From Sinonovacula constricta (lineage: Eukaryota; Mollusca; Bivalvia; Cardiida; Solecurtidae): a stretch of 64,000 nucleotides of DNA. The stretch's first letter is position 1, and each line of letters opens with the position of its first letter. The translations under genes were made by a program, and so were the position numbers. The stretch covers positions 63,159,256 through 63,223,255 of the forward strand of contig CM017561.1 of assembly GCA_007844125.1 (NCBI GenBank), written 5' to 3'. The notes beneath the pieces were generated by a model that did not search any database, was not told the origin of the DNA, and saw only the letters and a program-made list of their open reading frames with translations. Shown piece after piece: positions 11,142 through 59,810 of the stretch.

Positions 11142-11192
11142 ATGATGGAGACAAAAGTGTGCATTATATTATTGGTTTCCTTGTTTTTCCCT
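11142..11192 (+). CDS. Gene A exon 1, signal peptide
   Basis: Codes for MMETKVCIILLVSLFFP, a typical hydrophobic leader, and ends at CCT|GTAAGT in phase 0. The next exon begins in phase 0 at INGHVVMEI. Gene B begins with an equivalent single-exon leader. A 2.9-kb intron follows, holding several short random ORFs. Confidence 0.8.
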
Positions 11193-58300: not shown

Positions 58301-59810
58301 GAAACCAATATTATTAAATAGCCAATTTGTATAATGGAGGTTTTGGTTCTACTAACACTAACGGACATTTGTGTACCCATGAAAAAAGAATTAGAGGTGG
58401 CTGCGCAGTAACCATACTTAGCTGCCGGACTAACATTTCTAGCTAATCTGTTAGCAATCTAGAGCTCACTTGGGTTTACGTTTTGTTCCATAGTACACAA
58501 ACCATAATGTTAGTATACAATTACTTAATATGTGTACACGCTACTATGTCGTAGTATGCGGTGCTGTTGCACAGGCGCTCTGGCGTCTCTGCGAATGACG
58601 TGTTTAATTTACCTGATTATTACACGGTTATTACACCGAGAATGGTGGAGGACAAATATTAAGGTCTAATAGAATTTTCCGATGTCTATTTAAGATTGTT
58701 AAATATAGATAAGACATTGAATACCAAAATTATTATATGAAGTGGAAGTTTTAGATGCTTGAACACGTATAAAATAGTAATGTTTTTGTTTCGTATTTTA
58801 CATGTGCAGATCAAGAATTTAGCACAGTTGATCTCGAGTTATGTTGGATAGATTGAAATTCAGTTTTCACCTTATCAATAGCATGTATAACAACGAAGAA
58901 GCGCATAAACAGTAGCTAAAGGCAAAACATTGTTAAAACGGTGTAATACTTGTTAATACAGAGGTTGAAGAATATGTCACATCTATCTGCTGTGCAGGTA
59001 GTTTGGTCAGCATCGCAGCATGTTCTGGTGCCAGCTGGTCCAGCTTCCTTAGTTCCATCACCAATAAACTGCAGGATCCTTACGAAAAACTGAACATGGC
59101 CATCCTGGACAAGAAAAGGAAAATAATGAAAGTGCATCATTTGTAATTAGTGAGGTTGGTTAAATGGGAATGAAATGGGTCTGGTAATTAGTCGGAGGGA
59201 ACGGAATGTAGCGAAATAAGTAGAAGAAGTATACTCCAAGTATAATGGGAGATGGGGAATTATATACCAAACACGTCATTTGAAGAAAAAAGTTTTAAAA
59301 GACACGAATATGACAATCTTACTTATTACTGAATGAATTTATATGTCCACTTTCGTGTTGTTGTTGTTGTAGTTAAGTTTAACGTTTAATAAAAAGAGCC
59401 CGATTTTCATAATTAACTTTTCTTTCGGAAGGAAGATATACAGACCAGTAAAAGGGTATTTAATGCATTTTCATTAACTCCAATTGGTAGAATAAAAGTT
59501 AATTTATGATAACAATTAAACATATATATTTAAATGTTCCAGTAAAAAAATGAACCATTACCTCTATATAATTTATGAATTAAAATTACTTGTTAATAAC
59601 ATTTATATTTTTTTTTTCGTTTGCACTCTGTATAGAAATTGTTTATCTAAGCAATGTGTTTCACAAATTCTTCCTATAAACTGCAGTTAAGGCCAATATA
59701 CTTCTTTAATTAAATAAAAAACAATAAAAATAAATTTAAAATATACTCACATTGGATAAAACAGTTGAATACACATTTGCGAAAAACAACAAAAATGTAA
59801 AAGTCCGCAT
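36693..59810 (-). CDS. Gene B: double C2-DSL, 29-EGF, mucin-stalk type I membrane protein
   Basis: Seventeen coding exons on the minus strand: 59810-59751, 59104-58950, 56054-55946, 53348-53182, 52501-52359, 51971-51833, 51317-51158, 50298-50201, 49862-49706, 48667-48534, 47238-47108, 46746-46463, 42679-38812, 38398-38254, 37840-37693, 37389-37301 and 36906-36693. They total 6201 nt: 2066 residues and stop, with every junction phase consistent and GT/AG ends. Order: signal peptide (1-20), MNNL/C2-like (21-163), DSL-like (164-211), X (212-311), C2-like (312-440), DSL-like (441-484 and into the next exon), 29 EGF repeats (~495-1637), Ser/Thr-rich stalk (~1638-1868), X (1869-1966), transmembrane helix (~1972-1994), and a 71-residue tail with NPMY. 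Paralogue of gene A with the same cassette order and intron phases. Probably a cell-surface ligand or adhesion protein; Notch binding is inference from the domain plan. Confidence 0.86.
37463..37504. repeat. (ATC)n microsatellite
   Basis: About 13 ATC units in the intron between the second X and transmembrane exons of gene B. Confidence 0.93.
37693..38398 (-). other. Gene B second domain X
   Basis: Exons 38398-38254 (145 nt, 1-2) and 37840-37693 (148 nt, 2-0), about 98 residues. Elements: [10 protein letters not shown], helix [14 protein letters not shown], strand [10 protein letters not shown], strand [10 protein letters not shown], helix [10 protein letters not shown]. Same two cysteines as the other X copies. 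It sits between a mucin-like stalk and the membrane, the usual place of a SEA domain. Confidence 0.7.
38812..42679 (-). other. Gene B giant EGF exon with mucin-like stalk
   Basis: A single 3868-nt exon, phase 0 to 1. It completes EGF repeat 3 (RCGIHSSFC) and encodes repeats 4-29, nearly all calcium-binding type (DVNEC/DIDEC). Seven repeats of the whole array have exactly CQHGGTC, an O-fucose consensus (C-x4-S/T-C). After the last EGF (WNGQLC near 39507) come about 230 residues rich in Ser and Thr with no Cys, a mucin-like stalk. The strong periodicity makes several antisense frames look open on the plus strand (39435-42185); these are shadows. Confidence 0.9.
40320..41850 (-). repeat. Recent internal EGF duplication, offset 1068 nt
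   Basis: EGF repeats 10-13 and 19-22 of gene B are near-identical at the DNA level. For example GCATTCATTGACGTCAGTTT begins at 40535 and again at 41603, and similarity continues through the [15 protein letters not shown] repeat with only scattered differences. The offset of 1068 nt equals 356 codons, nine EGF units. This implies unequal exchange or gene conversion within the exon. Confidence 0.8.
43140..43205. repeat. Possible SINE head fragment
   Basis: GCTTGAGCGGAACGTCGTGG followed by GCTCGAACCCGCC looks like an isolated pol III B-box region. It is too short to assign to a family. Confidence 0.3.
43325..43608 (-). repeat. tRNA-derived SINE, family 1, complete
   Basis: Minus-strand copy: head GGCCGCAATAGCTCAGGTGG, B-box GGTTCGAACCCC, family body, and a tail of three TAATCCC units. 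A 14-base target duplication GTTATCAAATCATA flanks it (43311-43324 and 43609-43622). It lies in the 3.8-kb intron of gene B between EGF exons. Confidence 0.92.
44199..44788. mobile_element. 590-bp Mutator-like inverted-repeat DNA transposon (non-autonomous)
   Basis: Ends are perfect 88-base inverted repeats, 44199-44286 and 44701-44788, beginning CATCGTCGGATACCCCCGG. A 9-base target duplication TAGCAAACA flanks it (44190-44198 and 44789-44797). Long terminal repeats with a 9-base duplication are typical of Mutator-like elements. The interior holds a minus ORF (44603-44268, 111 codons) with a cysteine pattern CKVC...CSYRSL...CNLC...RC, resembling a zinc-binding N-terminal fragment, whose end runs into the left inverted repeat. 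No transposase is present, so it would depend on a partner. Identical ends indicate a recent insertion. Confidence 0.88.
44268..44603 (-). CDS. Cys-rich ORF inside the inverted-repeat element
   Basis: 111 codons starting [18 protein letters not shown]. Cysteine pairs C-x2-C near residues 10-13 and again C-x2-C near 57-60, followed by NKHNRC, suggest a zinc-binding fold. It may be a captured fragment of a host or transposon gene. Its C-terminus is encoded by the terminal repeat. Whether it is expressed is unknown. Confidence 0.4.
   Translation of the reverse strand: MATGTAHRKCKVCLSAIHDRCSYRSLGTPASIAKYTSVLNEIGILAHEDSDVACNLCVNKHNRCKLQDDLATRLSVIEVVCKRKLDWLADPLDFLSEPIGLRHFIVNKTTK
44798..46462. 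other. Gene B intron sequence, nothing recognised
   Basis: AT-rich remainder of the intron between gene B EGF exons 46746-46463 and 42679-38812. I see no repeats, RNA genes or credible ORFs in it. Confidence 0.6.
46786..46858. repeat. Hairpin with 17-bp perfect arms
   Basis: TCGAGCGCAATCTATAT (46786-46802) is inverted at 46842-46858 around a 39-base loop. It starts 40 bases upstream of the acceptor of the first EGF exon of gene B. It could be a tiny foldback element or an RNA hairpin in the pre-mRNA. Confidence 0.65.
47639..47743. repeat. (TA)n microsatellite
   Basis: About 52 uninterrupted TA units in the gene B intron between 48534 and 47238. Confidence 0.97.
47913..48198 (+). repeat. tRNA-derived SINE, family 1
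   Basis: Head ACCGGCTGCAATAGCTCAAG, diverged B-box GGTTCAGACCCC, and the shared body (GGACAGCATTACGCC, GACTCGTCGGTGTCAG, GGACCGGCCGGGTTCAG). More diverged in the promoter boxes than the other two copies. Target duplication not clear. Confidence 0.85.
50812..51082 (+). repeat. tRNA-derived SINE, family 2
   Basis: Head CCTGGTAGCGCATTGATTGA with B-box GGGTTCAAACTC, and a body matching the reverse of 29034-29354 (TAGTCGTATAGCTC, CTAACGCTCAA, GACACCGTCTCCAGATAACC). It lies in the gene B intron between X and cassette 2. Confidence 0.8.
51158..51971 (-). other. Gene B domain X, first copy
   Basis: Exons 51971-51833 (139 nt, 1-2) and 51317-51158 (160 nt, 2-0), about 100 residues. [11 protein letters not shown] aligns with SVNVTIDHVTQ of gene A copy 1, preceded by the conserved VCP. 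The next exon gives TVDFSASCD, then an acidic helical stretch. Confidence 0.72.
53530..54066 (+). repeat. Three tandem ~150-bp monomers of a dispersed repeat
   Basis: The motif AGTAACAGTGACCTTG followed by CCGACTGGCCCCCAAATCCA, TTTCAGCAAGATTGGTT and TTGACCGGAAAC occurs in three successive copies (starting near 53610, 53757 and 53897); the middle one is the most diverged. Ends in ACGTCCGCCCGCCATACC. It resembles a repeat I associate with bivalve genomes, but I cannot name its family. ORF 53493-53741 is part of it. Confidence 0.7.
55022..55200 (-). repeat. Dispersed repeat, copy 1
   Basis: Shares with 58270-58440 the features GGTTTCCATGGAA, a GTACCCATGAAAAAA block, and GTAACCATACCTAGCTGCCG. 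Both copies are in the same gene B intron region (cassette 1) and in the same orientation. Strand is assigned arbitrarily. Confidence 0.6.
57745..57858. repeat. (TA)n microsatellite
   Basis: About 57 uninterrupted TA/AT units in the gene B intron between exons 2 and 3. The poly-Ile/Tyr ORFs across it on both strands are artefacts. Confidence 0.97.
58270..58440 (-). repeat. Dispersed repeat, copy 2
   Basis: Second copy of the 55022-55200 element: GCCATGGAAACC, TGTACCCATGAAAAAAG and GTAACCATACTTAGCTGCCG in the same order. Confidence 0.6.
59751..59810 (-). CDS. Gene B exon 1, signal peptide
   Basis: Twenty codons, [20 protein letters not shown], a clear hydrophobic leader. Ends at TCCAAT|GTGAGT in phase 0, matching the phase 0 start of the MNNL exon at 59104. 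Same design as gene A exon 1. Confidence 0.8.

Follow-up and report, generated by a model that had tools for sequence, protein, structure and literature searches.

Notch ligands are taken to have one C2-DSL head. Here we describe two genes of Sinonovacula constricta, A and B, each of which appears to carry two such heads in series. Both lie within a stretch of 64,000 nucleotides, the window (C7:63159256-63223255, contig CM017561.1, in a genome of 1.22 Gb), and positions given below without a contig are positions of the window. The sequence makes it likely that A and B are tail-to-tail paralogues within a divergent Delta-like (DSL) family and that their anatomy of two cassettes originated by internal duplication. 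Several DSL units in one gene have been described before. The accessible portions of three sources report bivalve genes with DSL tandem repeats and no EGF (PMC8166818), cnidarian genes with MNLL and three DSL or with 1 to 11 DSL, for which the authors caution on possible misassembly (PMC2770060), and a kinase of Capsaspora that has two DSL (PMC4810162). An earlier sequence-only reading of the window had held a ligand with two DSL-type modules and a further domain between them to be, as far as known, undescribed; given these multi-DSL proteins, the claim can extend only to a C2-DSL-X module that is repeated and is accompanied by an EGF stalk and a transmembrane (TM) segment, X being a domain of two exons, a combination that we did not find in searches of the open-access literature.

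Layout of the genes

The exon chains of A and B were rebuilt from open frames, splice-site scans and the similarity between A and B. The order of parts is the same in both: signal peptide, first cassette (C2-DSL-X), second cassette (C2-DSL-EGFs-X) and TM segment. Gene A begins at 11142 on the + strand, and its 18 exons keep a frame open for 1371 amino acids to the first stop. The signal-peptide-like exon 1 (11142..11192; out-phase 0), recovered by a scan for such exons, precedes an MNNL-like C2.1 (14081..17010; exons 14081-14256, 15787-15922 and 16835-17010; phases 0-2, 2-0, 0-2), the DSL.1 exon with five of the six DSL cysteines (18396..18529; 2-1) and X1 (21352..22106; exons 21352-21499 and 21914-22106; 1-2, 2-0). 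The second cassette comprises a degenerate C2.2, assigned by position and phase (22550..23786; exons 22550-22623, 23069-23210 and 23644-23786; 0-2, 2-0, 0-2), the DSL.2 exon with divergent cysteines (24002..24120; 2-1), an EGF array with 15 PF00008 stretches (26392..30493; exons 26392-27231, 27696-27929, 28677-28788 and 29553-30493) and X2 (31704..32708; exons 31704-31848 and 32543-32708; 1-2, 2-0). The TM exon (33075..33260) leaves the C-terminus uncertain, with either a stop at 33258-33260 or, if the donor is used, an exon end at 33172 and splicing to a tentative tail exon near 33501. The out-phases of A run 0 for the signal peptide, 2,0,2,1 for C2 and DSL, 2,0 for X, 2,0,2,1 for the second C2 and DSL, 1,1,2,1 for the EGFs and 2,0 for X, ahead of the TM exon. 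Those of B are the same, except for the EGF exons (0,1).

Gene B occupies the - strand (59810-36693), with 17 exons and an open frame of 2066 amino acids. Its signal-peptide-like exon 1 (59751..59810; out-phase 0) is hydrophobic by eye and was missed by the scan. There follow C2.1 (53182..59104; exons 59104-58950, with a weak donor, 56054-55946 and 53348-53182; 0-2, 2-0, 0-2), the DSL.1 exon, with five DSL cysteines and weak splice sites (52359..52501; 2-1), and X1 (51158..51971; exons 51971-51833 and 51317-51158; 1-2, 2-0). The second cassette is made up of a degenerate C2.2 (48534..50298; exons 50298-50201, 49862-49706 and 48667-48534; 0-2, 2-0, 0-2), the DSL.2 exon (47108..47238; 2-1), whose six cysteines have a DSL-like spacing (8, 3, 9, 7, 10; by eye) once the next exon is included, an array of 29 EGF by cysteine count followed by a Ser/Thr-rich linker of 231 amino acids (38812..46746; exons 46746-46463 and 42679-38812), and X2 (37693..38398; exons 38398-38254 and 37840-37693; 1-2, 2-0). 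The last two exons (36693..37389) are the TM exon (37389-37301) and a cytoplasmic exon (36906-36693) with an NPMY motif, seen by eye.

The out-phases agree between cassettes 1 and 2 at six of six exons, in A and in B alike. The open chains of 18 and 17 exons with matching phases confirm what the sequence-only reading had claimed, namely that the C2-DSL-X cassette occurs twice in both paralogues; the phase series 0-2, 2-0, 0-2, 2-1 then 1-2, 2-0, which it had seen repeated with the EGFs intervening in the second copy, was correct in coordinates and phases.

That a plan with two cassettes is real is best supported by a third gene, H (C7:39043501-39064600), which is divergent and lies 24 Mb from A and B. 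A genome search with the cassettes of A matched C2-like exons at C7:39.0437 Mb (E=0.0011) and 39.0568 Mb (E=1.3e-5). The exons of H run C2 (0-2, 2-0, 0-2), DSL (2-1), X (1-2, 2-0), C2 (0-2, 2-0, 0-2), DSL (2-1), EGFs and the first X exon (1-2); the model spans C2.1 to X2 exon 1, the second X exon and the TM segment lying beyond the DNA range covered. Against Pfam, cassette 1 of H reached the cut-off for MNNL (23.3 bits; cut-off 22.5) and stayed below that for DSL.1 (16.8; cut-off 24.2). With H, three two-cassette loci were found. Two other Delta-like genes of the genome, G1 at C7:40.94 Mb and G2 at C7:5.98 Mb, have a single cassette (C2-DSL-EGFs-X), with MNNL and DSL scores well over the Pfam cut-offs. 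Their C2-DSL phases (0-2, 2-0, 0-2, 2-1) are those of A and B, X has 1-2, 2-0, and a TM exon of phase 0-2 was found in G2. A single DSL exon of G2 (C7:5984446-5984664, - strand) encodes two DSL units in a row.

Three observations weigh against a duplicated cassette in A and B. Part of the exon set was chosen to fit the anticipated phases (three exons of A, four of B, those of H and the middle ones of G1/G2), and because these exons were sought by phase, the chance figure of 3^-6 for the phase agreement was dropped as evidence. The donor of B C2.1 exon 1 does not reach the threshold, and B DSL.1 stands 19th of 49 when candidates are listed without regard to phase. Exons 1-3 of cassette 2 of A and B, taken alone, gave no significant match in profile and order comparisons. 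Over A, B and H, most of the choices stand in the phase-free listing: the chosen exon ranks first in 13 of 35 cases and within the top five in 23, and in 28 of the 35 just one frame is open. Of the six exons chosen in the second cassette of A, X2 among them, five take the first rank and the other takes the second. In H, the first rank goes to exon 1 of X1, of C2.2 and of X2; C2.1 exon 3 ranks 58 of 1386. Weak choices are this last exon, B C2.1 exon 1 and B DSL.1.

A single transcript would presumably span both cassettes. The alternative, that each locus holds two adjacent genes (a secreted C2-DSL-X and a C2-DSL-EGF-X-TM) or gives rise to short and long products, is in our judgment unlikely, although part of the evidence leans toward it. 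Read-through past X1 stops at the second codon in A and at the sixth in B, and the gap between the cassettes holds two AATAAA in each gene, where about 0.6 and 1.1 are expected from base composition (an estimate); the early stop and these motifs make a short soluble form possible. The gap of H (1717 bases) also holds five overlapping TM-like phase-0 frames. Against separate genes, however, the gaps of A and B are short (443 and 859 bases), the phase-0 junction is common to A, B and H, no signal-peptide-like exon lies between the cassettes at any of the three loci, and no TM-like phase-0 exon lies there in A or B. The scan behind these counts recovered three of the four known signal-peptide and TM exons, with one false signal-peptide-like match, in the TM region of A.

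The rest of the window holds a few features of its own. The B exon 38812-42679 (- strand; 3868 bases) contains most of the EGF array and the Thr/Ser-rich linker; stretches of 300 bases within it recur at the DNA level, 64-84% alike, so that the array seems to expand by tandem copying. An interspersed repeat of about 270-290 bases is present in introns of A and B in three copies (27980-28250, 43327-43616 and 47907-48196), 80-91% alike in the aligned pieces, and B introns include two long AT dinucleotide tracts (47578-47807 and 57695-57918). Exons for VOMI (vitelline membrane outer layer protein I) were located at 3611-5876 on the - strand, where Pfam VOMI is matched by three of four scanned frames, two of them with E 2.2e-16 and 2.7e-9 and the third, below the cut-off, with 1.1e-4.

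Identity of the cassettes and of X

By profile comparison, cassette 1 is clearly assignable to C2-DSL. Cassette 1 of A, B and H matched G1/G2 with E=1.5e-13 (hhalign; reversed control 0.07). A profile that combined G1, G2 and cassette 1 of A and B found the solved structures of Jagged-1 (1.1e-19) and Delta (3.5e-18), and it also retrieved those of Jagged-2, Delta-like 4 and Serrate. The profile of A and B cassette 1 without G1/G2 did not retrieve Notch-ligand structures; the link of kinship therefore runs through the genome's own relatives. Against Pfam MNNL (cut-off 22.5 bits), the first exon of C2.1 stayed below the cut-off in both genes, with E=0.0052 and 16.7 bits in A and E=0.00016 and 21.7 bits in B. 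The spliced head 1 of A was also below it (E=0.48, 10.4 bits), and MNNL was not among the Pfam matches of the spliced head 1 of B. A Pfam scan of the whole A protein listed neither MNNL nor DSL (none for DSL at E<=1), and surveys based on such scans may thus undercount genes of this kind. In a protein database, none among 6889 candidates reached E<=1 with residues 1-480 of B, which says little: a normal Delta-like head of this genome retrieved only one protein there. A phage search gave no match, as expected.

In an alignment of nine DSL exons, from which a tenth row (Jagged) was left out because of a frame error, five columns (four Cys and one Gly) are invariant throughout. DSL.1 of A, B and H is without the sixth DSL cysteine (C6). 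The C3-C4 loop, which we take to be where DSL meets Notch, has 7 residues in DSL.1 of A and B compared with 11 in the genome's Delta, though it keeps an aromatic residue. In cassette 1 of A and B, C2.1 has six cysteines, DSL.1 five and X1 two (by eye; the seven of DSL.1 and X1 were counted). With C6 lost and the count odd, one cysteine of this head would be unpaired and could form a dimer. The cassette 1 cysteines of H are 14, an even number (by eye), so that the idea of a dimer may fail for some members of the family.

A second DSL is likewise supported by comparison of profiles. Cassettes 1 and 2 matched with E=3.7e-10 (reversed 0.15) over the DSL exon and the last part of C2 exon 3. The second cassettes of the three genes, taken jointly, matched G1/G2 with E=3.6e-5 (reversed 0.56). 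DSL.2 of A has lost one DSL cysteine and gained another, and that of H has four cysteines (both by eye). Sequence does not identify the C2.2 of A and B, whereas it does identify that of H, which matched the C2 of G1/G2 at E=1.8e-6 (reversed 0.56); the corresponding exons of A and B are read as a degenerate C2.2 because of their position, their phase and gene H. The closest pairs in C2 and in X are A1-B1 and A2-B2.

The profiles of X1 and X2 matched with E=1.1e-8 (reversed 0.16), in support of their homology. G1 and G2 have an X-like domain after the EGFs, with phases equal to those of X and a weak sequence match (E=0.013). X has no Pfam match and no significant sequence match in the PDB (best E=0.67). 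AlphaFold predicted X exon 1 alone as one helix between extended ends, with a predicted local distance difference test (pLDDT) score of 82.9; the model of the DSL exon alone scored 66.1. Searches of PDB folds with these single-exon models returned 0 matches at E<=0.001 each. Two candidate identities for X were rejected. The Jagged juxtamembrane domain has a similar layout but gave no profile match (E=0.045, reversed 0.011; 0.78, reversed 0.13), and the introns sit elsewhere in the genome's own Jagged, which has EGF and VWC (the latter by eye) at C3:78.88 Mb. The likeness to SEA is in pattern only, with no match in the Pfam and PDB sequence searches, the sole SEA tests made. An X-like frame at L033:1282-965, in the set of C14 Delta-like loci, was judged to be chance. 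On C14, two copies of a Delta-like gene lie in inverted orientation some 1.6 Mb from each other (28.62 Mb, + strand; 30.18 Mb, - strand); they are 92-99.8% identical in long blocks and reflect a recent duplication or an assembly effect.

Origin and possible function

The sequence-only reading had proposed that an ancestral gene of the form signal peptide-C2-DSL-EGFs-X-TM underwent internal duplication before A and B split, an interpretation that finds support in part. The duplication and the loss of EGF exons from the first copy are well supported, with the profile matches and H in favor of the former; the order of events, the surface location and the function are what we infer. The block from C2 to X of the ancestor would have been duplicated, and this block can be repeated without a break of the frame because it is bounded by phase-0 introns. 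The first copy would then have lost its EGF exons, which are flanked by phase-1 introns, so that DSL.1 leads directly into X1. The product would be a membrane protein of type I whose chain bears two heads of Notch-ligand type, one after the other. The outer head (C2-DSL-X) would be the better kept of the two, and the inner C2-DSL head, degraded in A and B, would sit on an EGF stalk with the second X beside the membrane.

The receptor-binding unit DSL-EGF1-3 is found in neither head of A and B in its usual form: X follows the DSL of cassette 1, and EGFs do follow in cassette 2, but there the head is divergent. As both heads deviate from the Notch-binding pattern, a non-canonical or antagonistic ligand, or a role in adhesion, is favored over a standard agonist. 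We tentatively suggest that A and B may be non-canonical Notch ligands or antagonists, or proteins of cell recognition or adhesion, and not agonists. More speculatively, they could belong to a family of two-headed DSL proteins specific to their lineage; the outer head, released from the EGF stalk, would then act as a covalent dimer or as a non-activating decoy for Notch or another partner, and the inner head as a spacer. We consider it improbable that A and B are activating Notch ligands of the ordinary kind to which a head has been added. C2, DSL, the EGF array and the TM segment are all present in A and B, which are kin to Delta-like genes, but head 1 has no EGF after its DSL and no C6, and both the DSL and the C2 of head 2 are divergent.

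The least probable account is that cassette 2 of A and B is no copy of C2-DSL, with only the DSL exon shared and the three exons before it of other origin; the missing match of those three exons favors it, but at the equivalent place of H a second C2 can be recognised, exon-by-exon scores peak on the matching exon in four of four rows, local and global (by small margins except for the DSL exon, which alone stands out), and among 24 exon orders the natural one scores highest when compared with cassette 1 and G1/G2 together (43.1; next 38.4), though not with G1/G2 alone (22.1; best 22.3).

Comparison with known DSL proteins

A and B resemble Delta and Jagged in their signal peptide, C2 (MNNL), DSL, EGF array and single TM segment. 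They differ from both in having two C2-DSL units, an X after DSL.1 and another before the TM segment, a DSL.1 without the sixth cysteine, and a degenerate C2.2. VWC, which Jagged has before the TM segment, was absent from the Pfam scans of A and of the scanned pieces of B, which was not scanned whole. Under the definitions in the accessible portion of PMC5356439, and provided that X is taken as an additional domain, such a protein would be 'DSL-like' and neither a Delta nor a Jagged. X2 is adjacent to the membrane, as are SEA and the Jagged juxtamembrane domain, and X exon 1 is predicted as the helix between extended ends described above. G1 and G2, known as unjoined parts, have one cassette only, and G2 has its two DSL units in one exon. 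With two-head genes and a one-head form of equal exon phases in one genome, the copying of a head and its release from the stalk would become traceable.

Elsewhere in the genome, seven DSL matches lie downstream of one MNNL match at C8:61875097-61912773 (- strand), some of them beside Thr-rich runs, and these DSL matches start late in the model, with 9 to 12 of its 46 positions missing at the beginning. This cluster (C8:61.87-61.91 Mb) resembles the bivalve DSL-repeat genes as they are described in the accessible portion of PMC8166818. A and B share with the bivalve and cnidarian multi-DSL genes the presence of more than one DSL per gene and, as far as the accessible portions of those sources describe them (PMC8166818, PMC2770060), differ from them in that the whole C2-DSL-X block is repeated, with an EGF stalk and a TM segment after it.

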